From: Lysobacter sp. A03
GTDB lineage: Bacteria > Pseudomonadota > Gammaproteobacteria > Xanthomonadales > Xanthomonadaceae
Assembly (NCBI RefSeq): GCF_000855665.1
Contig: NZ_JXSS01000054.1
Coordinates: 1-64,000 of the forward strand
Reading direction: 5' to 3'
Length of the DNA stretch: 64,000 nucleotides
The position numbers were made by a program, and so were the translations under genes. Positions 4,460-29,504 of this stretch are shown here, piece by piece. The notes under the pieces are model-generated. The model was given only the letters and a program-made list of their open reading frames with translations. It ran no database searches and was not told where the DNA came from. How positions within the stretch are numbered: the stretch's first letter is position 1; each line of letters opens with the position of its first letter.

Positions 4460-4478
4460 GACTTACCCCTACCCGCCG

Positions 4479-4958: not shown

Positions 4959-5040
4959 GTGTGGCAGGATCCTGAAAAACCATCTCACCGCGCGAGAATC
5001 GCGGGGCGCCAAGGGTAGGCAGGACCCCCAAAGCAATCCA

Positions 5041-5081
5041 TTAGTAATTGGCTGAACAACCACCAAGCGCAGCGCTGGTGG
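5041..5081. promoter_or_regulatory. Divergent umuD / SRAP promoter region with an inverted repeat
   Basis: The 171-base gap between umuD and the SRAP gene contains a near-perfect palindrome at 5060-5081 (CCACCA(A)GCGC, A, GCGCTGGTGG) and, just before it, TTAGTAATTGGCTGAA at 5041-5056, whose left half matches the TTAGTAAT of recalled xanthomonad LexA boxes while the right half does not. Either could be an operator shared by the two damage-response units. This is inference from position and symmetry. Confidence 0.35.
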
Positions 5082-5129
5082 GCTTCTTGACTTGTAAGCT
5101 GTTGCCAGACTTCAACCGGGAGATGGGCC

Positions 5130-9038: not shown

Positions 9039-10524
9039 ACTAGTACTGCGGCCGAGCGCGGGAACACTGTTAGAGTCGATGCGCGACATCGGCTATTCAT
9101 TCGACAGCGCACTTGCGGACATCCTCGACAACAGCGTCTCCGCTCGCGCGCGCAAAGTTGAGATCCTAAATGGATTGGATGACAGGGATAAGCCGTATGT
9201 GGCCATAGTGGATGATGGCCATGGCATGAATAGTGACGAGCTAACGGGCGCGATGCGACATGGAAGCAGAAGTCCGCTGGCCACCCGGACAGAGGGGGAT
9301 CTGGGGCGCTTTGGTCTCGGCCTGAAGACCGCATCGTTCTCCCAGTGCAGGCGACTCACGGTAGTCAGTCGCAAGGGTGGAGAGACGCATGGGCGCCGAT
9401 GGGACCTCGATCGTGTTGTCGAGACTGACGAATGGCTTCTCCGAAGACTTGATATCCACGAAATCGGTGATTTGCCATGTATCGACTTCCTACCAGCAAC
9501 CGGAACGCTGGTTCTGTGGCAAGCGCTAGATCGCCTCGACGCCGAGGACCTCTCCCCGGGCAAATTGTCAGAAGCGCTGAATGAGCTTTTCGCGGGCGCG
9601 CGCCGCCATCTGGCCCTTACCTTCCATAGATACATTCGCCCCGAGCCTTCTGATAGCGATTTGCTACCGGTTGAGATCTCGATTAACGGATTCCCCATCG
9701 AGGCCGCAGACCCGTTCGCGCTTCATATGTCGCCAACGTCTGACAGCCACGAAATCGCGTGCCTAACAGCCGGCGATTCGCAGATCACGGCCCAAGCGTT
9801 CACATTGCCGCACCACTCCAGGTTGACACCCACCCAGCTGGAGAATTTGGCGCTTGGTACGAGTCTGGCAGAAGCCCAAGGTCTCTACATCTATCGGGCA
9901 AAGAGATTGATCAACGGCGGCACTTGGCTCGGACTTTGCAAGCGATCGGAGATGTCCAAACTACTCCGTGTACGTGTGGATGTACCGACGTCGCTTGACG
10001 CCTTTTGGGGTGTTGATGTTCGCAAGTCTCGGATTCGTCCGCCGGCGGCTGTGCGGTCCAGATTGAGGCCGCTCGTCGAACGGATGACGCAGAGTGCCAA
10101 ACGTCCATACACCTACCGCGGCCGACGGCAGGTCCAAGAGGCGACTCTTCCTATGTGGGATCGGGTCGAGGAGCGTGGGCACATCCGCTATTTGATTAAT
10201 CGTGCCCATCCACTGATTGAAGGATTCAAGCTGGTCGATGAGGACTTCTCGAGAATCGAATCGATCCTTGCGGTGATCGAGGCCAGCCTTCCACTCGAAG
10301 CCATGTTCTCGGATGTTGGATCCCATCCACAAAATGTGCGTCAGAGCGATTTCGACGAGGCGCAGCTGGAGCAGTTGTTGCTTACTTACGTGGGGATCAT
10401 GGCGCCAAACAGCGACCGGCTGCCGGCAGCCGTCTACAAGCAGATCAAGAGCGCTGCGCCGTTCAAGGACGATAGCCGAGTGCATCGCATTCTTGAGAAG
10501 CACCGAATGATCGAAGACCAGTGA
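9019..10524 (+). CDS. GHKL ATPase of the MutL/MORC-like defence family
   Basis: 501 residues. The Bergerat ATP-binding fold shows its three signatures near the N-terminus: ALADILDNSVSAR (DxxN at 34-37), VDDGHGM (65-70) and LGRFGLGLKTAS (95-106). The rest resembles the S5-like transducer region, with conserved Lys (SKLLRVRVDVP...) and no recognisable nuclease. Iyer, Abhiman and Aravind (2008, Biology Direct) described such MutL-like ATPases next to cytosine methylases, Vsr and Z1 proteins in bacterial restriction-type operons and linked them to eukaryotic MORC proteins. It probably acts as an ATP-driven DNA clamp that recruits the partner enzymes. It begins inside dcm and is eight bases before the Z1 gene. 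Confidence 0.88.
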   Translation: MVNQERELVLRPSAGTLLESMRDIGYSFDSALADILDNSVSARARKVEILNGLDDRDKPYVAIVDDGHGMNSDELTGAMRHGSRSPLATRTEGDLGRFGLGLKTASFSQCRRLTVVSRKGGETHGRRWDLDRVVETDEWLLRRLDIHEIGDLPCIDFLPATGTLVLWQALDRLDAEDLSPGKLSEALNELFAGARRHLALTFHRYIRPEPSDSDLLPVEISINGFPIEAADPFALHMSPTSDSHEIACLTAGDSQITAQAFTLPHHSRLTPTQLENLALGTSLAEAQGLYIYRAKRLINGGTWLGLCKRSEMSKLLRVRVDVPTSLDAFWGVDVRKSRIRPPAAVRSRLRPLVERMTQSAKRPYTYRGRRQVQEATLPMWDRVEERGHIRYLINRAHPLIEGFKLVDEDFSRIESILAVIEASLPLEAMFSDVGSHPQNVRQSDFDEAQLEQLLLTYVGIMAPNSDRLPAAVYKQIKSAAPFKDDSRVHRILEKHRMIEDQ

Positions 10525-10531
10525 GGGCAGC

Positions 10532-13264
10532 ATGACCCAAGATTTACTCCTTGCGTATGCGCGGACCGGCATGTCCAAAAGCAATATCAAGTCCCGCGAT
10601 GAAGTCCGGGACCTGGTTCTGCGCCTTGCGACGTTGCCATTGCTTCCAGAGACGCTTTCGAAAGACCAAATTGATGCAGTCATCGAGCAGCTTGAACACG
10701 ATTTCATGGTTAGGTTGGGCCCGGCCCATACCATCACGGGCCGTGGCCACAAGCCATGGCTTGATGGCCGGCGCCACGAGATCAACTTCAAGTACTGGCG
10801 TCGATACAATGACCTACTAAGACTCCATCTTGGGTTTCCGAAGCTCGTTGTAGATGGTCTCGATGAGATCTCGGACAGGATTCTTGACTTGGCGGGAGAT
10901 CCCAATGAGGAAGGAACATGGACTCGCCGAGGATTGGTGGTAGGACATGTCCAGAGTGGAAAGACTGCCAACTACATCGGGTTGATCAACAAAGCCGCCG
11001 ATGCGGGCTACAAGCTCATCATCCTCATTGCGGGGCTCCACACCAATCTACGGTCACAGACGCAGGAGCGCATTGACGAAGGATTCGTGGGTCGTGACTC
11101 TGATCAGCTTCTTGGCCGAAACAGCAACGCAACATGGTTGGGGGTCGGCGATATCGACCAGTCTTTCAGTGCGGTTGCCTTCACGAGCCGCGCCTACGAC
11201 TTCACCAAGCCTCGTGCTGATGGGCTGAACATCTCGATAGGCAGCCTTTCGCAGCCGGCAATCTTCGTCATCAAGAAGAACAAGTCCATTCTCACCAATC
11301 TGATTGACTGGTTGCGCAGCACGAGCTCTGCAGGCGATGTCCTTACCATTCCGATCCTTCTCATCGACGACGAGGCGGACAATGCCTCTATTAATACGTC
11401 CAAGGATCCAAGCCTTCCGAATACGATCAACTCGCTCATCCGGAAATTGCTCGCTAGCTCAACCAGGAACACCTACATCGGATATACCGCGACCCCGTTC
11501 GCAAACATCTTTGTGGATCCGGAGAACGACGATGAGCTCCACAAGGAGGACCTATTTCCCCGGGACTTCATTATTGGGCTTGATGCGCCCTCCAACTATG
11601 TCGGGGCGAGCGATTATTTTCTAGATGACAGGGAGACTGGGCAGAATCTTTCCGTTCTCCTTGAGGATGCGGAAGAGTGGCTTCCGGTAAAGCACAAAAT
11701 CGATGTCCAGATTGACTCGCTTCCTGAAAGTCTCGAAGACGCAATCAATTGTTTCCTCGTTTCCAAGGCAATCCGGATCCTGCGAGGACAAGGAGCCAAG
11801 CATCATTCGATGCTTGTGAATGTGTCACGCTTCACCGGAGTTCAAGGCCGCGTCGCATCGCTGATCAGCGAGCGCACCCAAACTGTGGCGGTTGCGATCG
11901 AGAACCGGCACCGCCTCTCAGCGGCTGTCGCGTTGCGTGATCCGATCATGATGTCCCTTCACGACACTTGGTTGAAGCATTACGAATCGTCAACTCCGGA
12001 ATCTTGGGACGACATCCAAAGAAGCCTGTACCAGGCCTCGGCCAGCGTGCACGTGATCGAGGTAAACGCCCGGTCCGGTCCGGGTGTTTTAGACTACCGG
12101 AAGTACGCGGATAGTGGGTTGAATGTTATCGCTGTAGGCGGAAACTCGCTTTCGCGAGGATTCACGCTTGAAGGACTCACGATCAGCTATTTCCTCCGCA
12201 ACACCCAGATGTACGACACACTTTTGCAGATGGGGCGTTGGTTTGGCTATCGCGATGGCTACAAGGATCTTTGCAGGCTGTTCATCAAGCCCGATGCATT
12301 TGACTGGTATGCCTATATTGCCTCCGCTAGTGACGAGCTTCGGGCAGAGATAGCGAAGATGGAGCGCTATGGGCTACGGCCAATCGACTTTGGGCTTGCC
12401 GTGCGTTCCCACCCGGGGTCGCTGCTGGTGACAGCGCGCAACAAAATGCGTACGGCCCGGGAAATCGTCCGGAAGGTCGGATTGGCTGCTCGCCTGGTAG
12501 AATCGTCGCTCGTGGTCGCACGCGGTGATGCGGTGGACGACAACTGGCAGCGTTCCGAAGCACTCGTCAAGCGCCTCGTCAATTCGGATATTTCACGTGT
12601 AACCCTTCGGGAGGATCCGAGTCTGAAGGCATCCGTGGTATTCCAAAATGTAGCCCAGGAACAGGTGCTGGAGTTCGTCGGAAGGTTCGTGTTGCCGTCC
12701 GGGAATCCGGAGATGGCTGCTCCGCCCATCATCGACTACGCGACGAAGCGCGGATTTGAATTCTGGGATGTGTTGGTGGCTTCCAACACTCGAGCCGTAG
12801 ATGCAAACACGCTTGATATCGGTGGACTCAAGATTGGTCTGCAGACACGCGCAGCGACCCTGCGCGGCACCGGAGCGCACGCGGCGCTGTCGGTATCAAA
12901 GAACAAGCGCCGCGTCGCGTCTCGCGGCCAAGAGGCCGCGGGGTTGACGGCCTCTCAGCGGAAAGCGGTCGAAGCGACGTGGCGTGCCGAGAAGGGCGAT
13001 GCAAGTATTCCCGACCGCTTGTATCGAGATGTTCGTGAGCGTCCCTTGCTGATGCTCCATTTTTTGGACATGCAAGTGGAACAGTCCGAGCCGGGCAAAA
13101 CGAAGTCGGAACGACATGCTGCTTACGGGATCAGTTTCCCGGGGTTGAAGGAGGGCGAGGTAGAGCAGAAAGTTGTCTACACGGCGAATGTGATCGCTTT
13201 CCGTGAGTTGTATGGCGACCCGGATGCGGAAGGGGACGATGATGACGACGAAAGCCAAGACTGA
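10532..13264 (+). CDS. Z1-domain superfamily II ATPase/helicase-like protein
   Basis: 910 residues. P-loop GHVQSGKT at 138-145, Walker B DDEAD at 279-283 and the motif III-like YIGYTATPFANIF near 318-330 identify an SF2 motor. The hallmark Z1 core GGNSLSRGFTLEGL followed by LLQMGRWFGYR lies near 540-575. Z1 proteins occur with MORC-like ATPases and methylases in restriction-type operons; a nuclease role has been proposed but no active site is seen here, so cleavage may come from the next gene. The C-terminus is very acidic (GDPDAEGDDDDDESQD). The stop lies inside the next gene. Confidence 0.92.
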   Translation: MTQDLLLAYARTGMSKSNIKSRDEVRDLVLRLATLPLLPETLSKDQIDAVIEQLEHDFMVRLGPAHTITGRGHKPWLDGRRHEINFKYWRRYNDLLRLHLGFPKLVVDGLDEISDRILDLAGDPNEEGTWTRRGLVVGHVQSGKTANYIGLINKAADAGYKLIILIAGLHTNLRSQTQERIDEGFVGRDSDQLLGRNSNATWLGVGDIDQSFSAVAFTSRAYDFTKPRADGLNISIGSLSQPAIFVIKKNKSILTNLIDWLRSTSSAGDVLTIPILLIDDEADNASINTSKDPSLPNTINSLIRKLLASSTRNTYIGYTATPFANIFVDPENDDELHKEDLFPRDFIIGLDAPSNYVGASDYFLDDRETGQNLSVLLEDAEEWLPVKHKIDVQIDSLPESLEDAINCFLVSKAIRILRGQGAKHHSMLVNVSRFTGVQGRVASLISERTQTVAVAIENRHRLSAAVALRDPIMMSLHDTWLKHYESSTPESWDDIQRSLYQASASVHVIEVNARSGPGVLDYRKYADSGLNVIAVGGNSLSRGFTLEGLTISYFLRNTQMYDTLLQMGRWFGYRDGYKDLCRLFIKPDAFDWYAYIASASDELRAEIAKMERYGLRPIDFGLAVRSHPGSLLVTARNKMRTAREIVRKVGLAARLVESSLVVARGDAVDDNWQRSEALVKRLVNSDISRVTLREDPSLKASVVFQNVAQEQVLEFVGRFVLPSGNPEMAAPPIIDYATKRGFEFWDVLVASNTRAVDANTLDIGGLKIGLQTRAATLRGTGAHAALSVSKNKRRVASRGQEAAGLTASQRKAVEATWRAEKGDASIPDRLYRDVRERPLLMLHFLDMQVEQSEPGKTKSERHAAYGISFPGLKEGEVEQKVVYTANVIAFRELYGDPDAEGDDDDDESQD

Positions 13265-14210
13265 TCCCTGGAGCAGCCTGTCATCTCAGAGTGGTGAATG
13301 GGTAGGTCGGCGTGCTGTGGTGGGTCATCCGCTGACTACGTTCTGGATGATCCATCCAGACGGCTCTCCAGCATTGCTTGTAAAGCAGGTCCCCCTAGGC
13401 AGTTTGCCGGTTGAACTTCCAAAGCTCCGGGGGATGGGAATATCCGTTCGTGAAGAACAGGACCAAACCGTCGCGGTCTCAATGCACTTACGAGTTCCAG
13501 AGGATCGCGACGTATTCCTCCGGTTATGTGAGGATGTGCTGGCTTACTCCGGAGACTCGGACAACGCTGGCGACTCGGCCCTGAAGCTGTTTAATCGCCT
13601 GCGTCGTTGGCAGTCGCTTCTTGGCTTAGCGCGGGGAGATGAGCTTTCCGATGAGGAGATGCGCGGTCTGATTGGCGAGCTTGCTTTACTGTGCGGGCCC
13701 CTTGTTAGTCGGTACGGGCTTGAAGGTGCACTTGCAGCGTGGGTCGCGCCAATGCGGCACCCGCAGGATTTCGTGCTCGATGGCTGCGCGATCGAGGTCA
13801 AGAGTCGCGTAGCCGGCTCCAGAAACCAAGTGCGGATTTCGTCGCTCGATCAGCTGGAAGTTCAGAGTGGAGACTTGGGGCTCGTTGTGATCGAGCTGCT
13901 TCCAGCCAGTGAAGAGGATGGCGGGAAGTCGCTGAATGACCTCGTAGTCGACCTGCTGGATGAAGCCCAAAAATGCGGCGGGAAAGTCCTGGATCAGGCC
14001 CAGCGTGCTCTTTCGGAATGGGGCTACGTAGCCTCACGCAGCTATGATCGCCACAGATTCGTAATCCATTCGATTTCAGCGTTTACCGTAACCGATGGCT
14101 TTCCACGTTTCACCCGCTCTGGGACCGATCCAAGAATCATCGAGGGCAACTACCTTCTGGGGTTGCAGTCGCTTGGGCCGTTCGCGGTGGATTTGGAGAT
14201 GCTGGTATAG
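13239..14210 (+). CDS. PD-(D/E)XK motif protein (DUF4420 type), probable nuclease of the island
   Basis: 323 residues from the first of two ATGs after a GGAAGGGG ribosome site inside the Z1 gene. The nuclease core is LIGELALLCG (helix Glu, about residue 147), then DFVLDGCAIEVKSR, giving the D...ExK triad, followed by a beta-strand GLVVIELL. Members of this family are typical neighbours of Z1 and AIPR genes. Overlap with Z1 by 26 bases implies coupled translation. It is the best candidate for the DNA-cutting subunit; specificity is presumably set by methylation state or the MORC/Z1 machinery (inference). Confidence 0.88.
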   Translation: MMTTKAKTDPWSSLSSQSGEWVGRRAVVGHPLTTFWMIHPDGSPALLVKQVPLGSLPVELPKLRGMGISVREEQDQTVAVSMHLRVPEDRDVFLRLCEDVLAYSGDSDNAGDSALKLFNRLRRWQSLLGLARGDELSDEEMRGLIGELALLCGPLVSRYGLEGALAAWVAPMRHPQDFVLDGCAIEVKSRVAGSRNQVRISSLDQLEVQSGDLGLVVIELLPASEEDGGKSLNDLVVDLLDEAQKCGGKVLDQAQRALSEWGYVASRSYDRHRFVIHSISAFTVTDGFPRFTRSGTDPRIIEGNYLLGLQSLGPFAVDLEMLV

Positions 14211-14229
14211 CCGCTAGGGGGGCGAGTTG

Positions 14230-16266
14230 ATGGAAGAAGAAATTCAGCGTTACCGGGCAGACCTTCTCGTTGAGATTCAGGCAGGGGCCGTTTCAGCTTC
14301 GGACTACGAGCGCACCCGCTTTATCGAGCGGGCGTGCGAGATTCTTCAAACGGGTGAGGAATTCACCGACTACGGTCTTTGCCGGGCACATGCTCAGTGG
14401 AAGCGGATCGAGGTGAGGATAGATGGCTACAGCCTATCCGAGTCAGATGGGATCCTCAGTCTGATCGTTGCCAGCTTTTCCGGCACGGAGGATCCGGAGC
14501 CACTGAAGACAGATGAAGTAAGAAGTCTGGTCGAACAAGCTCACAACTTCCTTCAGGGGAGTGTGTACGGGGACGTTGCTTCCCTTTGGGACGAGAGCCA
14601 CGAGGCACACGCTCTCTCTCGGGAGGTCTTCAGCTTTTCCAATGACCTCCTTACCAAAGTTCGAATATACGTTGTCTCTGACCGCCCGGCCGGAACCAAA
14701 CTCGGACGAATCCAGACACTCCGGCTCGGAACAAAGGATGTCGAAGTTCAACTGTGGGATATCGGACGACTTGCCCGCGCGGACATGTCCAATTCTGGGC
14801 GTGAAGCAATCACAATCGACTTCACCAGCGAGTATGGAAGAGGAATCCCCGCTTTGCCGGCATTGTCCGAAGGGACTGACTACAAATCATTCCTTTGCGT
14901 CATGCCGGGGGACGTGTTGGCAAGTCTTTACGATCGCTTTGGCGGGCGAATCCTCGAACAGAACGTTCGCGCATTTCTAGGAGAGGGGCGGAAGGTCAAC
15001 AAGGGCATACGCCAGACGCTCCGTGAGAACCCTTCCATGTTCTTCGCTTACAACAATGGTCTCACGGCGACGGTCTCCGACCTAGTTCTAGAGTCGAACG
15101 ACTCAGGGGTGGCCACGATCACATCGGTGACAGACTTCCAGGTCGTCAACGGAGGGCAGACCACCGCCTCGCTTTACTGGGCACGAAAGGCGGGGTATGC
15201 CCTCGACCAAGTCTCTGTGCAGATGAAGCTGTCCCAACTGCCAGAAGAAGGCTTTGAAGAAGCAGTCCACGATATCGCACGTTTTGCCAACGCGCAGAAC
15301 ACCGTGTCGGCGTCGGACCTTTTCGCCGGCCATCCGTACTTCAAGCGAATCGAGACGATCTCCCGGCAGACACTCGCGCCTGCGGCCAAGGCTGGCGATG
15401 TCGGAAGTTACTGGTTCTTCGAACGCACCCAAGGAAGCTACAACGTCGACTTGAAGCGGAGGAAAGGTGTAGCCGCCAAGGCATGGGAGATGCTTCATCC
15501 ACGCAAGCAGCGAATCACGAAGACGGACATCGCGCGTTATGAAGTGACTTGGCGCTCCGTTCCTCACAGTGTCTGCGCAGGCGCGCAGAAGAATACGGCG
15601 GCCTTCGCAAAGCTCATCAGTGATCAGTGGGCCAAGAGTCCGGAAACTTTCGACAGTGAGTACTACAAGGCAGTTGTCGGCAAGGCCATCCTCACTCGGA
15701 TGCTAGACAGTGCTGTTCCGGGACAGGACTGGTACCCCGGGTCCATGCTTCGGCAAGTCGTGACTTACACCATCGCCTTGATCGCCGATCGGCTTAGAAA
15801 GGTGGGCCGCGTGATGGATTTCGAGGCGGTTTGGAAGTCCCAAGTAGCCCCTGTCTACTATGTCGAAGAGGCCCTGCGTATTGCAGAAGAGGTCGTACCC
15901 TACCTCCAAGACATCCCCGTCGAGCAGGTTCGAAACAGACTTGTTACGGAATGGGCCAAGAGGGAGGTGTGCTGGCTTAGGTTGCAGGAGTCGGACATCC
16001 TGCTCTCAGATGAGTTTTTGGCTCATTCCAAGAAGCAGATTCAAAGTGGGATAAAGACTCCGTGGCCACAACGGGCGCGTGCTTTATGGGCCGACGGAAC
16101 TTGGAAGCGTCTGCATGCTTGGGAGGCCAAGCAAAATGCGCTCTCGCCCGGAGAAAAGGATCTAGTGGAGCGCGCTTCGATCGCGCACAGCTTCGGGTTT
16201 AAAGGTTTCCGCCTGCAAAAGCTTCAGGAGGCTTGGGACAGGGCTGTGGAAAGCGGATTTGTTTGA
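14230..16266 (+). CDS. AIPR (abortive-infection phage-resistance) family protein
   Basis: 678 residues from the ATG at 14230; a TTG three bases earlier is also possible, and the GGGGG ribosome site serves either. The family core FFAYNNGLTATVSDL followed by VTDFQVVNGGQTTASLY (about residues 275-318) is unmistakable. AIPR proteins were named from a lactococcal abortive-infection gene and are recurrent partners of DUF4420 and Z1. Their biochemical role is not settled. It follows the PD-(D/E)XK gene by 19 bases and closes the five-gene unit. A GC-rich hairpin lies about 70 bases downstream. Confidence 0.92.
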   Translation: MEEEIQRYRADLLVEIQAGAVSASDYERTRFIERACEILQTGEEFTDYGLCRAHAQWKRIEVRIDGYSLSESDGILSLIVASFSGTEDPEPLKTDEVRSLVEQAHNFLQGSVYGDVASLWDESHEAHALSREVFSFSNDLLTKVRIYVVSDRPAGTKLGRIQTLRLGTKDVEVQLWDIGRLARADMSNSGREAITIDFTSEYGRGIPALPALSEGTDYKSFLCVMPGDVLASLYDRFGGRILEQNVRAFLGEGRKVNKGIRQTLRENPSMFFAYNNGLTATVSDLVLESNDSGVATITSVTDFQVVNGGQTTASLYWARKAGYALDQVSVQMKLSQLPEEGFEEAVHDIARFANAQNTVSASDLFAGHPYFKRIETISRQTLAPAAKAGDVGSYWFFERTQGSYNVDLKRRKGVAAKAWEMLHPRKQRITKTDIARYEVTWRSVPHSVCAGAQKNTAAFAKLISDQWAKSPETFDSEYYKAVVGKAILTRMLDSAVPGQDWYPGSMLRQVVTYTIALIADRLRKVGRVMDFEAVWKSQVAPVYYVEEALRIAEEVVPYLQDIPVEQVRNRLVTEWAKREVCWLRLQESDILLSDEFLAHSKKQIQSGIKTPWPQRARALWADGTWKRLHAWEAKQNALSPGEKDLVERASIAHSFGFKGFRLQKLQEAWDRAVESGFV

Positions 16267-16338
16267 GCTGACCTCACACTTCTTGCTCCCATGACTTTCA
16301 GATAGCAACGATCACTTGCGCCCGCTTACGACCCATTT

Positions 16339-16358
16339 CAGCCGTTCACGAACGGCTG
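16339..16358. repeat. 20-bp perfect palindrome after the AIPR gene
   Basis: CAGCCGTTC-AC-GAACGGCTG is a nine-base inverted repeat with a two-base centre. There is no U-run after it, so it is not a classical terminator. It may mark the end of the defence island or be part of the adjoining transposon relic. Confidence 0.5.
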
Positions 16359-16442
16359 CTTTGCGGCGGCTCGACGGCACGAGTAGCCGGGTATTTACAG
16401 TACTCAGGCAGGCCAGAAAGCGTAGCCGACCAGAATCAGTGA

Positions 16443-17177
16443 CGTGGCGGCGGTTTCTCGCTGCATGCGGGCGTCGCGGCCGAGGCGCACGAGGGCCAGA
16501 AGCTCGAGCGCCTGTGCCGGTACATTGCACGCCCGGCAATCAGCGAGAAGCGCCTGTCGCTCTCGCCACGGGGCAGGGTGCGTTACCAGCTCAAGACGCC
16601 GTGGAAGAACGGCACGACGCACGTGGAGTTTGAGCCGGTGGAGTTCATCGCCAAACTGGTGGCGCTGGTGCCGCCACCGCGCGCCCACCTCACCCGCTTC
16701 CACGGCGTCTTTGCGCCAAACGTGAAGTTGCGCACGCAGCTGAAGCCATCGGTTCACGGCAAATGTCTTCCGACGGACGAGGAGTCGACTGCGGCCAACA
16801 GCGACCACCGCAGCCCCGACGAAAAGCGCCGCTCGATGACCTGGGCGCAACGCCTCAAGCGCGTGTTGAACATCAACGTGAGCACCTGCGGCCACTGTGG
16901 CGGCGCGGTGCGGATCGTGGCCAGCATCGAAGAACCCACTTCCATCCGCGTCATCCTTGCCCACTTCCCAAAGCACCGCGCGCTGGAGAAAGCGCACTAC
17001 CGACCTGCAGCGCGCGCACCGCCCGCTGTGGCCGCGTGGCACTCTGCCGGCCACGACGCCGAAGGAGAAACCAGGAAGACAACACGAAGCGGCAACCAAC
17101 CGGCAGGGCCGTGCTCGGCCCGCTGCCGGAAATCAGCGAGAAATGGCTACGGACGGCAAGGCGCCGCGCCCCCGTGA
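16443..17177 (+). pseudogene. IS91-family transposase, C-terminal remnant
   Basis: The frame opens after a TGA at 16440-16442 and at once reads GFSLHAGVAAEAHEGQKLER, then LCRYIARPAISEKRLSLSP, RYQLKTPWKNGTTHVEFEP, LTRFHGVFAPN and WAQRLKRVLNINVSTCGHCG. These are consecutive blocks of the rolling-circle (HUH, Y2) transposases of IS91-type elements, including the late zinc-binding CxxC. The N-terminal two thirds with the HUH motif and the catalytic tyrosines are missing, so it is dead. It lies directly after the defence operon, marking the junction with the next accessory block. Confidence 0.85.
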
Positions 17178-17292
17178 TGCCAAAATCCCACCCGCAAACA
17201 TCCGATCCGCGCCCAAACCGGCGCTTGCGCGACCATCGCCTACTCGCCAGACTGTTCCAAAAGGGCGTTTGAATTTCCTATACTTCTCCGTC

Positions 17293-17415
17293 ACCGGCGA
17301 CGGTACCAGCTTCCCGCCCAGCGCCACCTTTTGCCACAAGTGCTGCACCAAGGCGCTGGTGATCATGGGCGGGTGTGCTACTTGTTCGAATTGTGGGTAT
17401 TCGAAGTGCGGGTGA
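17293..17415 (+). pseudogene. Stray 3' end of a ribonucleotide reductase gene (nrdJ-like)
   Basis: In the frame ending at the TGA 17413-17415 the last residues are CHKCCTKALVIMGGCATCSN followed by CGYSKCG. This matches, from memory, the Cys-rich extreme C-terminus of xanthomonad B12-dependent ribonucleotide reductases (CHKCxTKALVLMDGCxTCLNCG pattern), which re-reduces the active site. Nothing of the catalytic barrel precedes it: upstream is transposase remnant. It is therefore a displaced gene end, possibly carried by a one-ended IS91-type transposition. Confidence 0.65.
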
Positions 17416-17440
17416 GGTAGTTGGTACGAGGTTGATACGA

Positions 17441-17473
17441 GGGTCAGGTGCAGAGAGCGACCTGACCCTTTTT
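17441..17473 (+). terminator. GGGTCAGGT hairpin followed by T-run
   Basis: GGGTCAGGT (17441-17449), a ten-base loop and ACCTGACCC (17460-17468) form a nine-base stem followed by TTTTT. It can act as a rho-independent terminator, but the same AAAAAGGGTCAGGT box recurs in the opposite sense at 18576, so it may instead be a mobile-cassette end. Confidence 0.6.
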
Positions 17474-17500
17474 CTTGCCGCTTAGGGGGGGTAAATTGCG

Positions 17501-18562
17501 ATGCAAGAAGACAGGATCGAAAGGCCCGCAAGGCCCGCACTCCGGATGAACCGACGGGTGTCCGAGCTGGGCGGCACGGTGGCCTTGAGTAGCTTTCTGG
17601 CTGCCACAGGCGACTTCTTTGCGCCCAAAGGCGGATGGATGGCGCTGCTGCTGGCGGGCTTCGCAGGTGTCGGCCTGGTGATTGCCATTTGGATCTCGAA
17701 TGGCAGTCTGTTCGCGTTGCTGGAGAAGATCGATCGGCCGTTCTTCGCTTCCTGGTGGCGCGGGCGTCCGGTCTGGGCACAGCACGGCTTTCATGTGGTG
17801 ATGATCTTCGTGGTGTCGTGCTTTTTCACCGGTTTTGCTGCTTACCGCGAAAAGGACGCTGGAGGGTTGCTCGCCAGCCGATCTGCGATCGTCTCAGACA
17901 TGCAGGTGGCCGCTGGCATCATGGAGGAACAGCGCAAAACCACGGCGGCGGTAGAGGCGCTCACCGACGTAACCCGGCAGGTCGAGCGCAACACGGCTGC
18001 GGCGAAACTTGAGGACAGCGAAGATCCGCGCAAAGAGATCGCCAATCTCGGCTTGAGCTGGAACCAATCCGCCTTCAGTGAAGCGATCCGGCGCGAGGAT
18101 CTGCCAGTGATCCGGCTGTTCGCTGAGGGCGGCATGCAGATCCAGAAAAATCAGTTCTTTGGGGTCATTCTGGAGAAGCTGAACATCGTGGAGGCGTTCC
18201 AAGGGGTCGATTACACGCTCGATCCACGCGCCTGCCATTTCGCACTGGCCTATGTCCACGCGTTTGCCGAAGAAAACGACTGGAGAAAGAGCTCCGACAT
18301 CAAGGCTTCCGAGATCCGCTTATCGGAGACAGCAGTGCGCAACTATTCGTATTTCTGCAGTGACTATGCGGAACTCAGTCAAACGCTGGCCGAGAAGTAC
18401 GAGTGCCGCCTACAGCCACAGCGCGCCATCTGCGAGAAGCTTCGCACTGTTCTATGCGAGTACGGCAAAGGCAATCGCTGCCCGGGCCTCTCCGCCGAGA
18501 TCAAGCCCGAGTTAGCGAGAGATCGAACGCAACAGCTGGTGGATGACGTGATGGGTCAGTGA
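17501..18562 (+). CDS. Orphan inner-membrane protein with coiled coil and ankyrin-like segment
   Basis: 353 residues from ATG 17501, with a G-rich ribosome site about ten bases before. Two hydrophobic helices are clear: WMALLLAGFAGVGLVIAIWI (about 46-65) and VVMIFVVSCFFTGFAAY (about 98-114). After these come a charged, probably coiled stretch (MEEQRKTTAAVEALTDVTRQ, about 140-165), an ankyrin-repeat-like segment (AIRREDLPVIRLFAEGGMQI, about 190-210) and a Cys-containing tail with six Cys that may form disulfides if periplasmic. No family is recognised. It is bracketed by inverted GGGTCAGGT boxes, suggesting it arrived as a unit. A role as membrane effector is only a guess. Confidence 0.75.
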   Translation: MQEDRIERPARPALRMNRRVSELGGTVALSSFLAATGDFFAPKGGWMALLLAGFAGVGLVIAIWISNGSLFALLEKIDRPFFASWWRGRPVWAQHGFHVVMIFVVSCFFTGFAAYREKDAGGLLASRSAIVSDMQVAAGIMEEQRKTTAAVEALTDVTRQVERNTAAAKLEDSEDPRKEIANLGLSWNQSAFSEAIRREDLPVIRLFAEGGMQIQKNQFFGVILEKLNIVEAFQGVDYTLDPRACHFALAYVHAFAEENDWRKSSDIKASEIRLSETAVRNYSYFCSDYAELSQTLAEKYECRLQPQRAICEKLRTVLCEYGKGNRCPGLSAEIKPELARDRTQQLVDDVMGQ

Positions 18563-18572
18563 AAGTCGGTCT

Positions 18573-18590
18573 AAAAAAAGGGTCAGGTTG
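18573..18590. repeat. Second GGGTCAGGT box, inverted relative to 17460-17473
   Basis: AAAAAAAGGGTCAGGTTGG repeats the box found in reverse on the left of the preceding gene. The A-runs face the gene on both sides. The following bases (GGACTACCCCTGATTTCTCG, about 18589-18608) look like an IS3-type element end, but no transposase follows. Confidence 0.55.
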
Positions 18591-18782
18591 GACTACCCCT
18601 GATTTCTCGGACACCACAGAGCGAGGACAATCCTCGCACGGAGGTGTTCGATGGAGAAGGTAACCGCCATTCTGACCGTCGAGACATTTCCGAGCGGCGC
18701 TTTATACTTGTGCATTGGCGGCTTATATGGCGAAGTGCTCTAGAGTCGCGAAAGTGCGCTCACAATCAAAGGAAAATGGCAC

Positions 18783-19946
18783 ATGTCGACACACGCAGGG
18801 TGCGCGGACAGCACGCAGCAAGATGTCCTTGGAAGGGCGAAGCAGAAAGCACTTCGCCTTGCTCTCCAGCACGCAAATGCAGAGGTCGTCGAATTCAAGG
18901 CGTTAGCACTTGTTGACCTTCAAGGCATCTATCTGCGACTCCACGAGGTGCTAATTGGAATCGACTTCCCAATTGATAGTGGCGTCATTATTGGGAGGCT
19001 AGGCGCGCTTCAAATTAATGACGTTTTCGTAGAAATCCAGCAAGCCATCAAACAAAAGCTTGGTAACCGCGTTGGGGTACTCCAGGAAATCTACGATGAG
19101 ATCGAAGTTGAGATGGTTGAGGGGAAGGCGTACTTGGCGCAAGCGCCAAGGGTCGTCCAGGACGGCAAGTATTTACATGTAGAGCCTGCTTTCGAGGTGT
19201 TCTATGCCACGCCTCCCTTGGCGGAACTTAAATGGCCTTTGGCGCAAGAAGAAAAAAAGGGAAGTTTGCAGGCGCGAGAACAGCTGCGGCTACTGAAGGC
19301 TGGGAAGATCCGCCACCGCAATTTCGAGCGCGATTACCGATTCTTCTCAGAATTTGTCGACGCGGTAAAAGGGCATCCACGCTGTAGTGGTTACGTGGAA
19401 GGATTTTTCTCGTGGCGTGTCGGTCCAAAGGGACTTCAGTATTTGGACGAAAAATGTGTCGACACGAGCATCGTGATCAGAGCGATGGAGGCGCTTTACG
19501 AGAAGCACGCCGACGTGCTTTGCATCATTTCCTCGGACCAGGATTTCATCCCTGTGAAAGAGAAGTGCGAGAAGTTCGACGTTCAGTTTTTCCAGAAGGA
19601 CGCAGCCAAGTTCTTCTCCGGCACCTACGTCGGAAAAGAGATCGCAAACCTTGGGGACAAATACATTGCCGGCACATTTAAGCCAGAGTGGCCTATTGAG
19701 ATCCTTACCGAGCACCTAAGGCCCGGTAGTGATAGAGGTTTTCTGCTAGACGGAATAACCGAAAGGGAGGCGCTTGCCCTTGTGAGCTTCCACAACGCGA
19801 TAAATGACTTCAAGGTCAACCTTGCTCAGCTGCATGACGGGAGCTTTCAAATCATCATTACGCGGCCGGATGGGACCGAAGTTGAGCATCGCAATGACCC
19901 GAAAAGCAATATGAGGCAGGTCAAGATCACGACCCTGGAGTATTAG
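18783..19946 (+). CDS. NYN/PIN-like (LabA-type) RNase-fold protein with unusual insert
   Basis: 387 residues from ATG 18783, with AAAGGA about eight bases upstream. The NYN signature is in the middle: KCVDTSIVIRAMEALYEK (Asp227), then ADVLCIISSDQDFIPVKEKC (Asp252, Asp254), the acidic residues that bind Mg2+ in this nuclease family. A first strand-like ALVDLQGIYLRL at 42-53 fits the opening Asp (D45) of the domain, which would leave about 170 extra residues between strand 1 and the second motif; canonical members have far fewer. The C-terminal 100 residues are unrecognised. It stands alone in the island. NYN proteins often cleave tRNA or other RNA, so an RNase effector role is plausible but unproven. 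Confidence 0.75.
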   Translation: MSTHAGCADSTQQDVLGRAKQKALRLALQHANAEVVEFKALALVDLQGIYLRLHEVLIGIDFPIDSGVIIGRLGALQINDVFVEIQQAIKQKLGNRVGVLQEIYDEIEVEMVEGKAYLAQAPRVVQDGKYLHVEPAFEVFYATPPLAELKWPLAQEEKKGSLQAREQLRLLKAGKIRHRNFERDYRFFSEFVDAVKGHPRCSGYVEGFFSWRVGPKGLQYLDEKCVDTSIVIRAMEALYEKHADVLCIISSDQDFIPVKEKCEKFDVQFFQKDAAKFFSGTYVGKEIANLGDKYIAGTFKPEWPIEILTEHLRPGSDRGFLLDGITEREALALVSFHNAINDFKVNLAQLHDGSFQIIITRPDGTEVEHRNDPKSNMRQVKITTLEY

Positions 19947-20061
19947 GAAGGTCCATGCAGGTGTCTCCCGGAGACAGGCGGAAACACTGTGCGTGCGCCG
20001 GTCGGACTACGTCGTTGTTTCAGCAGAGGCTGGGCAGCGCGCTCGCGGTGACCATGTGACA

Positions 20062-20085
20062 TCTCCTTTCGACCCGAAGCAGACA
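20062..20085. repeat. Dispersed palindrome, copy 1
   Basis: TCTCCTTTCGACCCGAAG then CAGACA: a degenerate copy of the GTCCGCTTT...AAAGCGGAC palindrome, in the gap between the NYN gene and the 808-residue gene. Confidence 0.6.
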
Positions 20086-20179: not shown

Positions 20180-22606
20180 TCAGTATCGTACCCACTCCTC
20201 ACTAGGTCTCGCGGTAAGACGATCTTTCTGTGGCGCGCAATCGCTGAAGCGGGGATCGCTGCAGCATTCGCACTTCGGGCAAATGAGTCGGCCGCAGGCA
20301 CAAGTTTTCTCACGAGCATATACAAGCGGTCGGAAGCCGCACTCCGCTTGATTTCTTAGAACGTCTCTTCCCCCGCAGTGCGCCAGCAATGTCCTCCGCT
20401 TTCCGTCAGGGAAGGTGCCCACAAGCACGCCATTTTCGAAGATGCTAAGGTCAGACAGTTTCAGGAAAGTCGACTGTGATAACTTAGTTTCTAGTGCGGT
20501 TAAAGCTTGTAGCAATGTCCCAATAGTGTCAGTTGGGTCAACGATCCCGACCGATGCCGCCAGCGACACAGGCTCCCACCGTGATGCATGGGTCGTCGAT
20601 GACTTAGGCGCAGTCGATGCTGAATCTTCGGATCGTGGACTGTGCTTGGACACCGTGAACCCCCATTGAAATAGGCTGGTAAGTTCCGAGGTATTGATAT
20701 CTTTTTTTTGTGCGCGCCAATGAAGCCAGAAGTGAAGCACGAATAGATAGAGTTGCGGAAGCCTGAGTAGATAACGCTCCGCGCCAGTTCCTCTGTTACC
20801 GGGCACAGTTGCCATCAGCATTTCGAGAAATGCATTTTGTTGCTCCGAGCGCTCACTATTGGCTAGAAACGCCGGGGTGTTGCAAAGCACTAAAAGCACC
20901 GGTGGAAAAGCCTCGCGAATTTTCTTTGGTATCGAATTTTGTCGAGACTTGGTTAGCCAATCCCTGAGTTCGCGCAGAGCGATATTTCTAGCTCGATAAT
21001 GAGCGGTTGGATAGTCCCAAGACCAAGCTGGTAGCTCGACAAGTTTGGTTGTACTGTGCACGTGCAAGCGATAGATGTGATCGAACTTATTCAGCAAACT
21101 CCTAGTTTCGCTCGCAGTAGTAACGCCGAGAACGCTCATCTCCTCGAAAGTATCGCAAGTAAGGCGTCCATCCCGATCTAGTTTCGTGTAGGGACTGCTC
21201 ACTCCACAAAGAAGGACATCGGCACCGCGGGCGTCAGTTTTGAAGGCTTTCACCTTCCAACGGCTGGAGTGCATTCCCCCGTTAAGGGTACGCCGGAGAT
21301 TTTTCACGTCGACCCCGTAGCGGTGCTCAACTTTCAAGTCCATTAGTCGCCACTCGTCAGTACTACCGTTTAGTTGCAGTTGCGCGACATCGTCAACATG
21401 CAGTCCGAGTGACCGGAAATACTGTGCCGCGCAACGCTCGGCAGCTCTCGCAGTGAGCATCTGGGCGGACACTGACGTGTCCATCTTAGCGTTGCCACTC
21501 GATGTACCCCAAAGGGCGGCCAGTTCAATGTCTGTGTGATCTAGTGCGTCAATCTGATCACGGGCACGGTAGTTAGAGGGGCAGAGATTCGGCGTTCCGA
21601 GGTCGCAGATCGCAATGAGAGCGCTATCTAGAGCCGGAAACCTGTAGCGGTAGACGCGTTCAAGAAAATGCTCTGGCGCATAAGAAAAACCAACCCAATG
21701 TGTCGGAATAGCGTCAAATGCAGCTGAGTCAGCCTTCAGTTGCTCCTCCAACGCGTCCCATAGACCTAACGGATGTGACGTGTAAAAATGTTCATCATCA
21801 GATTCTTGTGCCAGCCATAACCACCGATTGATCCAATCTAGGGCGCAGATTGCGCCATGGTCAGCTAGCGCCAAAGAGGTAGCCATCTCAATTAAGCTGA
21901 TCCGAGCATCTGGTACCGTCTCCCAGAGGGACTCAAGCCACGCGCCCTTGATTACGGCTCTGTTGGGAACGCGTTTAATGATCGACAGCGCGGTGCTCGG
22001 GTCTTGCAGAATCAGCGGAGCTACTACGGACGATGTGATTGCTGCAGGTGCTAAATGAATTGCCCGGGAGAGAATCGGGCTCATCCACGCGTCGGCTGGG
22101 GCATGTAAATTGGACTTGCGAACAAATTGGTCGAGCTTTGGGCTTTTGACTGACGCTAAGACCAAAAGAGCGATTGCAGCTGGTTGTGAGGTCTGAATAG
22201 CTTTGAGCCTCTCAAGTTCATCAAGCGGGTGTTTCGTAATCTGTGCGGCAGTCCACAGCAAGTCTGCGGACTCCTTTGAGGTTATATCCAAACTAGACGC
22301 CGAAGTTGCTGCGTACCTACCGTCCGGCTTCCTCACGACGTCCATGCCAATCACGGCTCCCCGGAAACAGTCCTCTGATGTAGCGAGAGCAGCAAGACGC
22401 CCTGCATTCAGGAAGATGGATTCAGGGCGCGGCGTCGTAAGGCTCCTCGCGAAGCCGAATCCTTCTGGTCGAAGCTCATCGATAACCCCAATTTCCTTCG
22501 TCTGTTTCAGTCGAGGGTTGTCGCGCTGATCTGAGGGGCGTTGGTGCCTACCTATTGGCGATTCCATTGCGGCCGTTTTCCGTTGAGATGTCGTTAGCTT
22601 ATGCAT
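20180..22606 (-). CDS. Large orphan: cold-shock-like N-terminus, helical middle, PD-(D/E)XK-like core, Cys-rich tail
   Basis: 808 residues; GC is visibly lower than in the core half. Residues 38-105 (GVIDELRPEGFGFA, SIFLN, GRYAATSAS) have the strand and aromatic pattern of a cold-shock/OB domain. Residues 115-370 are helical and Trp-rich, without known motif. Residues 385-475 look like a PD-(D/E)XK nuclease: ARAAERCAAQYFRSLG (Glu390), WRLMDLKVEHRYGVDVKN (Asp423 and the DVK triad ending at Lys435) and GADVLLCGVSSPY. The end carries CACGRLICPKCECC (769-782) plus Cys790, a probable zinc site. The start may be ATG 22606 or 22567 (MESPIGRHQ); neither has a strong ribosome site. No family is recognised as a whole. 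A nucleic-acid-recognising defence nuclease is the favoured guess. Confidence 0.8.
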   Translation of the reverse strand: MHKLTTSQRKTAAMESPIGRHQRPSDQRDNPRLKQTKEIGVIDELRPEGFGFARSLTTPRPESIFLNAGRLAALATSEDCFRGAVIGMDVVRKPDGRYAATSASSLDITSKESADLLWTAAQITKHPLDELERLKAIQTSQPAAIALLVLASVKSPKLDQFVRKSNLHAPADAWMSPILSRAIHLAPAAITSSVVAPLILQDPSTALSIIKRVPNRAVIKGAWLESLWETVPDARISLIEMATSLALADHGAICALDWINRWLWLAQESDDEHFYTSHPLGLWDALEEQLKADSAAFDAIPTHWVGFSYAPEHFLERVYRYRFPALDSALIAICDLGTPNLCPSNYRARDQIDALDHTDIELAALWGTSSGNAKMDTSVSAQMLTARAAERCAAQYFRSLGLHVDDVAQLQLNGSTDEWRLMDLKVEHRYGVDVKNLRRTLNGGMHSSRWKVKAFKTDARGADVLLCGVSSPYTKLDRDGRLTCDTFEEMSVLGVTTASETRSLLNKFDHIYRLHVHSTTKLVELPAWSWDYPTAHYRARNIALRELRDWLTKSRQNSIPKKIREAFPPVLLVLCNTPAFLANSERSEQQNAFLEMLMATVPGNRGTGAERYLLRLPQLYLFVLHFWLHWRAQKKDINTSELTSLFQWGFTVSKHSPRSEDSASTAPKSSTTHASRWEPVSLAASVGIVDPTDTIGTLLQALTALETKLSQSTFLKLSDLSIFENGVLVGTFPDGKRRTLLAHCGGRDVLRNQAECGFRPLVYAREKTCACGRLICPKCECCSDPRFSDCAPQKDRLTARPSEEWVRY

Positions 22607-23015
22607 TAGGTGTCACAGTCTACGTTTTGGCCGACAGCGAACGGCCTGGCGGTCTCGATTCGACCAGAGCCCGCCCTCAGGTAGCCATACCGAGTAGACA
22701 CGTGAAACACCGGTCAGAGGCGGATTCTCGCTTCTTCAACTCTTTCAGCGTCCGCTTCTGGCCGGAAGCCGACATCCTCTCGCGGGACGAGAGCGCCGCC
22801 CGCAATTATCGTGCGTACCTGACAGGAGTTGAAACGTGGATCCAGTGGACTGCTCCCATTAGTTGGGGCTCGCGAGAAGCGAGAGAAGGAGGTGGAAGGC
22901 AGCTGACTTGCGTACAGGTCGGTTGGCGTCCGCCCGAATGTGGTGTGTCGATCCCTTGCACTATCGATACATCACCGGCGGGTATTGGAACGACTACTGC
23001 CCCGTCTAGCGGCGT
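22607..23015. other. Intergenic stretch, one palindromic repeat, no gene seen
   Basis: It contains copy 2 of the dispersed palindrome. A 154-codon open frame crosses it on the plus strand but runs through that palindrome and into the neighbouring gene, and does not read like protein. The promoter of the 808-residue gene must lie in its left part. Confidence 0.5.
22749..22775. repeat. Dispersed palindrome, copy 2
   Basis: CGTCCGCTTCTGGCCGGAAG then CCGACAT: arms GTCCGCTTC and GGAAGCCGAC around a GGCC-like centre. It lies upstream of the 808-residue gene. Confidence 0.65.
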
Positions 23016-24500
23016 CTAGTAGACGCGCTGCGCACGCGCGGCGCTACCGCACAGGTCATCCGGCGCCAGGCGACCAGCGATCGGGCCACCCGCACGGACC
23101 TTGCCCATGAGCTTGTCGTCGACGATCCACCACAAGGCCGTCCCGCGCTCGCGCGCCACGACTCCAATCTCCAGGGTGTGCTTCTCGGCCGAAGCGAGTC
23201 GACCTACGACGTCAATTGGAAGCTCAAACAGATGCGTGGCCCCGCCGTCGACCTCATAGCCGAGGTAGGTGGTAGCCCCGCATTGGAAGATGCGCGCGTT
23301 CCTATAGACCGGCTGAGCGCCCAGCACCGGGTGCACCACGTCGTAGATGGGAAGTTGGTCCCATAAGGTGCCGCCCGCGATCCTGAAGCCGGGCGTTACG
23401 TGCGCGGTCTGCCCCCAGCCCGAGTGTTGTTCAGTGTGTCCGGCCAAGAGCTCGTCTCGCCTGGACGCCCATTCCTCGCGGCGGGTCAGTGACAGCTGTG
23501 GGATCGTGAGTTCGAAAGACCGGCGCTCCTTGGCGCCATCAGCGCGGGCAACCGATTGGCCGAGCAGCCGGTCAATGGGCCAGAGCGAATCATTGCCGCC
23601 CTGAAGCGCATAGTCGATCGGAACAACGACGTCGGTTCGGCTCGAAAGCCCCATCTTCGCCAGCAGCAAGTCGACGTGCGCGGTGAGCTCCGCGCCGACG
23701 CCCTCTCGATACGAATCGCCAGCATCGCTGTGCACCCCGGGGACGGGCACGGTCTGTACGCGGTCCGTGTCCGATCGTTCGTCGTAATCGGATCCGAAAG
23801 CAATGCGGCGCTCGTCCATCGAGACGAAATGTATGACGTGATCCGCCGAGGGGGGAATGTTCAGAAGCAGGTTGCCACGCTGGCCCGTGGCAACGGTGTC
23901 GAAAAGCAATGCGTAAAAGTGTACATGGGGATCAGCGACGTCGGCTTTGGCCGTGCAATTGCGTTCCACGAGATTCATGAAGTGCCGCGCGGATGCCGCA
24001 CCGCGGGAGAAGCCGGCGACTAAGATTCGGATGTCCGCGTCAGGCGCTTCTGCCCGTACGCGTTTGATGTCCGTTAGGGCCATTTGGCACGCGTCCTCTG
24101 CCCTCGTGGCTGTGCTGAAGCCTTTGGCGGCATCGAATTGCCTATATAGCTTCGAGCCGGTAGTGCCTACGCCGGTGTAATACTGGGCGCCCACTTTGAC
24201 TCGCCCTCCTTCTTTGATGACCCCGAGCATGTGGGCAATGACTGTGGGGCGCTCAGGCGCCTGTGCGTTGTCTTTGTCGTTGCGGGTGCCATCGAACAGA
24301 TAGGCCAGCACCACCGGCGGTCGCCCACGGTAGGGCTGTGTAAGTGACCACGGACGCGCGCCGTATCGCGCATCGACGAGTGCCTGCCGGTCACGGATGG
24401 TGAGCGGTAGCGGCTCCTTCGCCGCCCCCGAGGGCACGCCTGCGCATGCAAGGGAGATGAGTGCAGCGGCGCTCAGTGAGCCGAACGTTTTCTTCGTCAC
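23016..24500 (-). CDS. Secreted DUF2235 alpha/beta-hydrolase (Tle1-phospholipase-like)
   Basis: 494 residues from a GTG start with AAGGA upstream. The N-terminus (MTKKTFGSLSAAALISLACA) is a signal peptide. DUF2235 features are YLFDGTRNDKDN (69-78), the nucleophile elbow VAGFSRGAASAR (Ser165), LLFDTVAT (candidate acid Asp201) and VPGVHSDAGDSY (candidate catalytic His257). Type VI phospholipase effectors Tle1 share this fold, but they lack signal peptides and travel with VgrG, which is not present here. The periplasmic export and the C-terminal 200 residues are unlike standard Tle1. Substrate unknown; lipid or ester hydrolysis in the envelope is the likely chemistry. No immunity-like partner is adjacent. 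Confidence 0.85.
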   Translation of the reverse strand: MTKKTFGSLSAAALISLACAGVPSGAAKEPLPLTIRDRQALVDARYGARPWSLTQPYRGRPPVVLAYLFDGTRNDKDNAQAPERPTVIAHMLGVIKEGGRVKVGAQYYTGVGTTGSKLYRQFDAAKGFSTATRAEDACQMALTDIKRVRAEAPDADIRILVAGFSRGAASARHFMNLVERNCTAKADVADPHVHFYALLFDTVATGQRGNLLLNIPPSADHVIHFVSMDERRIAFGSDYDERSDTDRVQTVPVPGVHSDAGDSYREGVGAELTAHVDLLLAKMGLSSRTDVVVPIDYALQGGNDSLWPIDRLLGQSVARADGAKERRSFELTIPQLSLTRREEWASRRDELLAGHTEQHSGWGQTAHVTPGFRIAGGTLWDQLPIYDVVHPVLGAQPVYRNARIFQCGATTYLGYEVDGGATHLFELPIDVVGRLASAEKHTLEIGVVARERGTALWWIVDDKLMGKVRAGGPIAGRLAPDDLCGSAARAQRVY

Positions 24501-25159
24501 GACGTATCCAGTCCTTTAAGTCCCATATGCCCAAAACGTTTGGTCCGACGGTTTGGACATCACCCGAAACCGACTGACCGCTCGATTGCGGTCCTATTGC
24601 TTTGCCCATCGCTTCCACGAGGCAAGCAAGCTTCCAGATGAATCCGGCAAAACTGGCGGAGTGCGAATCCATACGGGCTTCAGCATTCGCCAATTACCGA
24701 TATTCACATATTGATGCCCCGTAGAACCGACTGCGTCCGCCGCCGTGATTCAACGAGCGTGCGTAGCGGCGTGAACTCATGTGTCTAGGAAAGCCTTGGC
24801 TCTTTCCGTCGCGCCGCCGGGTCCAAGGGGAGAGAGGTCGCAGTGCCATGGTCCACGGCCCACCTTTCGCGCACGACATCGGCATCGTCGAGCAGGGAAA
24901 CCTCGAGTCCCTCGCCGTCCGCCGCCCAACATTCAGCCAAACCGCACCTCGATGCAGTGGCTAACCTTGTGTGCTAGTGACGGCGCGTCACCGCTCTCGT
25001 TGGGCTTGGCCCGGCTGCGCATGCTGTCAACCACGGGATGTCCACTTTCGACCCGAAGCGGACACCCCGACAGCGGCAGCTCGTCGCCGAGGTGCTCGTT
25101 GTAGATCCGCAGTTCCGTCGACCCGTTTCTGCTCGCGCCGTCAGGCGTATCATTTCCGC
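24501..25159. other. About 660 bases without a supported gene
   Basis: It contains copy 3 of the dispersed palindrome near its right end. Several open frames on both strands look like noise and lack ribosome sites. Degenerated accessory DNA. Confidence 0.5.
25039..25064. repeat. Dispersed palindrome, copy 3 (best preserved)
   Basis: TGTCCACTTTCGACCCGAAG then CGGACA: the arms TGTCC(A/G)CTTTCG and CGAAGCGGACA are nearly complementary. Confidence 0.7.

Positions 25160-29427: not shown

Positions 29428-29504
<77 letters not shown>

Follow-up and report, generated by a model that had tools for sequence, protein, structure and literature searches.

A candidate stand-alone defence nuclease combining a cold-shock domain, a PD-(D/E)XK-like core and a cysteine-rich tail

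The 64,000-nucleotide stretch of Lysobacter sp. A03 DNA analysed here (the window) carries on its minus strand an 808-codon open reading frame, P0001 (20180..22606; ATG start, whole gene), which is a real gene and probably encodes a stand-alone defence nuclease. On balance we lean towards P0001 belonging to a new family of horizontally spreading, stand-alone PD-(D/E)XK nucleases, one that is unnamed yet built from known kinds of parts. An earlier note on this sequence had divided the protein into a cold-shock-like N-terminus, a nuclease-like core and a cysteine-rich tail, and this three-part anatomy was upheld. The note had also recognised no family for it, consistent with the lack of a meaningful match in Pfam, NCBIfam, PADLOC 2023 or PHROGs: P0001 and six relatives (L002-L007) matched no family in Pfam or the PADLOC 2023 HMMs, and gave only weak, sub-threshold rows in NCBIfam and PHROGs. 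Literature searches on cold-shock domains with defence or nucleases, and on the accessions of five relatives, found no paper on the P0001 family. The alignment suggests M14 (22567, minus strand) as the probable true start, since it coincides with the start of a Lysobacter relative (L011).

The putative catalytic part of P0001 is a PD-(D/E)XK-like core spanning residues 355-510 (21077..21544, minus strand), supported by a model of the core and fold searches. It contains the pattern singled out in the earlier note, comprising an acidic helix residue, E390 (21437..21439), the motif D, D423 (21338..21340), and the (D/E)xK motif D433-V434-K435 (21302..21310), all on the minus strand. The positions proved right and are invariant in the family, while the spacing pattern by itself turned out to be insignificant: such a string can arise by chance, since 842 of 1000 shuffles of P0001 hold one (mean 3.1). 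E390, D423, D433 and K435 are conserved in 10/10 aligned sequences, five of which are only 19-21% identical to P0001, and the same E, D, D and K can be read in the Belnapia and Synechocystis pieces and in the protein of a locus found later (L080, genome G989). Of the 46 invariant columns in the 10-sequence alignment, six are acidic, with four falling within 390-433, and two are lysines, K435 among them.

Because the model of the whole protein had low confidence at residues 351-500 (pLDDT 28-66 by blocks), the core was modelled separately, using residues 349-545 from six sequences. This gave a pTM of 0.69 and a mean pLDDT of 66.8, with blocks of 76-89 over model residues 1-90. The predicted topology is that of a restriction nuclease, in which E390 lies within model helix 25-51, D423 just ahead of model strand 76-78 and the DxK motif within model strand 82-90, so that, in the predicted order of helices and strands, the E, D and DxK each fall where a nuclease of this kind would have them. 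A structure check of residues 380-480, as proposed in the earlier note, thus predicts the restriction-nuclease fold, with modest fold-search scores. The best VIA match to the core model had a Z of 6.6, in the range below 8 for which the tool advises caution. By title, the 50 matches listed were influenza PA endonuclease/polymerase (46), NhoI (2), SPARDA (1) and I-Ssp6803I (1), all of them PD-(D/E)XK proteins. Foldseek against the PDB gave a best E of 0.013 and none at E<=0.001; among the 50 matches listed, 17 are by title PD-(D/E)XK proteins (Holliday-junction enzyme, DdmD, PA, SPARDA, HincII, EcoRV, NhoI, LHK-Exo and Eco15I), seven are tRNA-splicing endonucleases and the other 26 are mostly unrelated, Rep15 taking five of the top eight places. 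Two BFVD matches reached E<=0.001, both unnamed or uncharacterised, and lower matches were named as restriction endonucleases, Holliday resolvases and one PD-(D/E)XK protein. No PA-, SPARDA- or NhoI-like function is claimed for P0001, since fold matches do not show function.

The core thus resembles the PD-(D/E)XK superfamily in predicted secondary structure order and in the placement of its E, D and DxK residues, but it has no significant sequence or profile match and lies outside every Pfam family, NOV_C/DUF3883 being the profile lead. PDB profile and sequence searches returned no significant match for the core, and the sensitive profile search suggested in the earlier note likewise failed to connect it to a known PD-(D/E)XK family. 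With hhalign the core scored 20.2 against NOV_C (Prob 3.9; 1/100 shuffles as high) and 15.5 against Mrr_cat (Prob 0.8; 2/100 shuffles as high), both profiles being members of the superfamily; this test is weak, because NOV_C against Mrr_cat itself scores only 22.7. A profile comparison with the DUF4420 protein of the window found nothing (Prob 0.4). Overall, the modelled PD-(D/E)XK-like fold and the catalytic residues of the P0001 core are supported.

The modest fold scores would also suit a toxin acting as a nuclease, or a scaffold that binds nucleic acid but is inactive and in which the conserved residues are structural or regulatory, and the nuclease activity of P0001 is a prediction. We regard this alternative as quite unlikely, given that the four residues at catalytic positions stay invariant down to 19-21% identity to P0001 and that no partner is common to most loci among ORFs of at least 80 aa, a size that smaller antitoxins would not reach.

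Ahead of the predicted nuclease, residues 34-106 (22289..22507, minus strand) are modelled as a cold-shock (OB-fold) domain with a pLDDT of 64-84 by blocks in the full-length model. VIA matched this segment to CspA (2l15) with a Z of 9.6 and an rmsd of 2.2 over 67 residues, a match in keeping with a five-strand OB fold, followed by Lin28, Unr, YB-1 and other cold-shock domains. Foldseek also ranked cold-shock domains first (prob 1.00; none at E<=0.001), so that model and fold searches agree on the OB-type N-terminus that the earlier note had read from the letters. Cold-shock domains are defined by the aromatic RNP1 and RNP2 motifs, the latter typically with a His. P0001 has an RNP1-like EGFGFA and an RNP2-like SIFLN, with Asn at the His position, and GFxFA and FLN are retained in all five members of the long clade described below. 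Pfam gave no cold-shock match above its cut-off for the N-terminus; OB_RNB appeared below the cut-off (E 0.005-0.055) in 3/5 long-clade members and was absent from the window's own protein. In fold and RNP-like motifs the domain resembles those of CspA and RNase II/R (OB_RNB), but in P0001 it is joined to a nuclease whose fold is a different one.

A helical region follows at residues 111-340 (21587..22276, minus strand), predicted to be helical when the whole protein is modelled (pLDDT 35-84 by blocks) and found in the long clade only. The cold-shock domain, too, is seen in the long clade only. Short-clade proteins have about 150 different residues in place of the long-clade N-terminus, for which PDB sequences offered no good match (best E 0.07). 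At the other end of P0001 lies a cysteine-rich module (residues 687-790; 20237..20548, minus strand) with seven Cys invariant in 10/10 sequences (C744, C756, C769, C771, C776, C779 and C782). The seven-Cys tail of the earlier note fits the interval C769-C790; counted from C744 on there are nine Cys, of which seven are the invariant ones. The module is probably zinc-binding. Its matches were weak and treble-clef-like only (FYVE, DUF2116), seen in relatives or with the profile, and its best E against PDB sequences was 0.24.

P0001 is not the orphan it had been taken for, as 12 related loci exist besides the window, spread over Proteobacteria and a single cyanobacterium; 10 of them consist of one open frame and two are broken. 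Six were found on plasmids by tblastn, in Variovorax (L002), Microvirga (L003), Sinorhizobium (L004), two Roseomonas (L005 and L006) and, as a fragment, Synechocystis (L007), and plasmid searches with other family members as query turned up nothing more. Scanning genome contigs under the guidance of a profile brought in two Solimonas loci (L009 and L010), Lysobacter (L011, whose protein is 59% identical to P0001), Roseomonas ponticola (L012) and Belnapia (L013), and a genome search contributed L080; a row from G953 was left out of the count, its coordinates being identical to those of the R. gilardii copy. The Belnapia copy is broken by an interruption of about 2.6 kb, that of Synechocystis by being divided among frames. 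These two and the later-found L080 are omitted from the 10-row alignment (A2), which includes the window. An 11-row tree resolves a long clade (window, Lysobacter, two Solimonas and Variovorax) and a short clade (Microvirga, Sinorhizobium, three Roseomonas and Belnapia), the window pairing with Lysobacter with support of 97/95.

Nei-Gojobori estimates, obtained with a custom script for four family pairs, gave dN 0.285, dS 2.49 (near saturation) and dN/dS 0.11 for window-Lysobacter; dN 0.199, dS 1.37 and dN/dS 0.15 for Microvirga-Sinorhizobium; dN 0.066, dS 0.269 and dN/dS 0.25 for R. gilardii-Belnapia, where the Belnapia copy is broken; and dN 0.460, dS 1.04 and dN/dS 0.44 for the Solimonas pair. 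Because dN is below dS in all four pairs, the family is, on these sequence estimates, under purifying selection and kept as a protein.

The gene is sporadic. It was absent from 99/99 sampled relatives of the source (nine of its genus), from 368 others of the class and from 397 others in the phylum sample, so that with the source included its prevalence is 1/100, 1/369 and 1/398 in these three overlapping samples; in samples of two other taxonomic families it occurred in 4/249 and 1/246 genomes, source genomes again included. Genome alignment searches scored two to four candidates per genome, and the rarity of the family may therefore be overstated. The absence from the 99 sampled relatives suggests that P0001 was acquired by horizontal transfer. 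Scanning genome and viral contigs for P0001 peptide patterns, scanning viral contigs with A1 or A5 as query and searching phage records with P0001 or L012 brought no relatives to light; the absence from viral contigs is weak evidence, because the scans need short conserved stretches.

The setting of P0001 in the window is low in GC as the earlier note had stated, the gene having 53.0% GC vs 65-69% from about 30 kb rightwards. A tRNA-Pro (29428-29504, minus strand) lies near this GC step; no second copy of its 3' end (24 bases, <=2 mismatches) was found in the source genome. Hairpin-like repeats of the type GTCCGCTT..AAGCGGAC flank P0001 at 20051-20085, 22747-22766 (minus strand) and 25030-25064, and are perhaps REP-like or cassette-like; in another genome of the same taxonomic family (G047), 15 same-strand copies of the hairpin repeat lie between small ORFs over about 36 kb. 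The left part of the window holds a umuC-like polymerase gene and a SRAP gene (3218-6050), followed by a C5 methyltransferase gene and MzaB-, MzaC-, MzaD- and MzaE-like genes (7401-16266, plus strand), which end 3.9 kb from P0001. In PMC9523054 mzaA is given as a sigma factor, so the set in the window would be an Mza variant that begins with a methyltransferase instead. A 353-aa ORF (17501-18562, plus strand) with no Pfam or PADLOC match lies between these Mza-like genes and one with a NYN domain. The protein adjoining P0001 on the other side (23016-24500, minus strand) has a Tle1-like phospholipase domain and, by reading, a signal-peptide-like start. The statement that P0001 sits between defence genes therefore holds on the left, with the Mza-like and NYN-domain genes, and does not hold on the right, where the Tle1-like hydrolase and DUF4238 genes are found.

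PADLOC identified defence genes (Mza, Gabija, Ssp, Dpd or DUF262) near the family gene in 5/11 loci, six others (L002, L005, L006, L010, L012 and L013) having been scanned in a 119-ORF pool whose hits are not assignable per locus. In Sinorhizobium, GajA begins 134 bp downstream of the family gene and is followed by GajB. In Microvirga, an annotated phosphorothioation-associated methyltransferase gene, itself with no PADLOC match, is 0.1 kb away, SspH about 2.9 kb and SspG about 8.3 kb. The family gene of Solimonas SE-A11 (L009) is 4.3 kb from DpdD and 6.5 kb from DpdK; an HNH gene and a DndB-like gene occupy the interval (14622-19453 of that locus). In Lysobacter (L011) the distance from the family gene to a DUF262 (GmrSD_N) gene is 168 bp, and next to this neighbour is a RelA/SpoT-domain gene (7776-8777 of the locus, minus strand). 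Annotated DUF262, HEPN-like and methyltransferase genes are near the family gene in Roseomonas OT10, and C5 methyltransferase genes in the window and in L006.

Some of these neighbours prompt the alternative that P0001 is a modification-dependent (type IV-like) restriction enzyme, its N-terminal and cysteine-rich parts reading modified DNA that the core cuts. The Ssp genes of L003, the Dpd genes of L009 and the C5 methyltransferases of the window and L006 fit such an enzyme, but modification neighbours of this kind would mark host DNA, Pfam shows no modified-base reader domain in P0001 and six relatives, and the loci are too few for a test. We hold this to be decidedly improbable.

In keeping with the earlier description of P0001 as sitting alone, an ORF comparison (>=80 aa) across the 11 loci found no neighbour common to most of them, and beyond the family itself only four similar pairs, including two methyltransferases and two DUF262 genes. 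ORFs for this comparison and for the controls were called by custom scripts, which can be expected to miss or misplace some genes. In a pooled PADLOC scan (E<=1e-20), a mode whose output names 25 families and is not broken down by locus, the 119 neighbour ORFs of the 11 loci matched 66 families, compared with 35 and 47 families for two control pools, which together held 194 ORFs taken from 17 randomly chosen 20-kb stretches on nine of the replicons that carry the loci. The control stretches had strong matches to BREX, pAgo, AbiLi, Druantia-like and PglW models, and for this reason no local defence enrichment is claimed: the replicons carrying the family are defence-rich, and its closeness to defence genes may reflect only that.

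A non-immune role on mobile DNA has also to be weighed, in which P0001 is an accessory DNA/RNA repair or plasmid-upkeep nuclease whose cold-shock domain and cysteine-rich tail load onto the element's own single-stranded intermediates. Five intact copies of the family are on plasmid records, a cold-shock fold suits single-stranded nucleic acid, and the umuC-like and SRAP genes are in the low-GC part of the window. The sporadic distribution argues against this role, as do the direct adjacency of some copies to defence genes and the lack of a repair or replication neighbour (>=80 aa) common to most loci, and we consider it unlikely.

Returning to the preferred reading of P0001 as a stand-alone defence nuclease, its parts are similar to ones found combined in the CnuC proteins of CoCoNuT and in TALON, as described in PMC11090510 and PMC12458937; DUF2357 and NERD are defining features of those systems. 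According to the former, CnuC/McrC proteins have DUF2357 and a McrB-type GTPase as partner; P0001 and six relatives gave no Pfam match to DUF2357 (McrC N-terminal), and no McrB-like GTPase gene was among the window genes scanned. In TALON and TOTE, as presented in PMC12458937, a cold-shock domain is joined to helical repeats beside a PD-(D/E)xK nuclease in defence, and TALON has separate genes for a YprA-like helicase, a NERD nuclease, TPR-CSD and TBP. On that account the cold-shock, helical and nuclease parts are spread over several genes in TALON and contained in one gene in P0001. P0001 and six relatives did not match the NERD nuclease, and no YprA-like helicase or TBP gene was named among the window genes scanned.

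We infer the substrate, trigger, zinc and defence role of P0001 from these features. The cold-shock domain would bind single-stranded DNA or RNA from phages or plasmids entering the cell, the cysteine-rich module and helical region would have a regulatory role or aid in binding, and the metal-dependent core would cut nucleic acid, so that the invader is blocked or the infected cell stopped. The sensing part would have been swapped between clades; as expected from this, the short clade keeps the nuclease and tail and differs at the N-terminus. It is possible, and we propose it tentatively, that the family as a whole comprises single-gene immune nucleases with an exchangeable sensing N-terminus, either a cold-shock domain for invader ssRNA or ssDNA or another module, on the same PD-(D/E)XK core and seven-Cys tail, working with no ATPase, helicase or partner. 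If so, an unnamed family would join the repertoire of defence nucleases, a single gene would hold the cold-shock, nuclease and zinc parts of systems like CoCoNuT and TALON, and P0001 would offer a small protein open to direct testing, in which four specified residues can be mutated.
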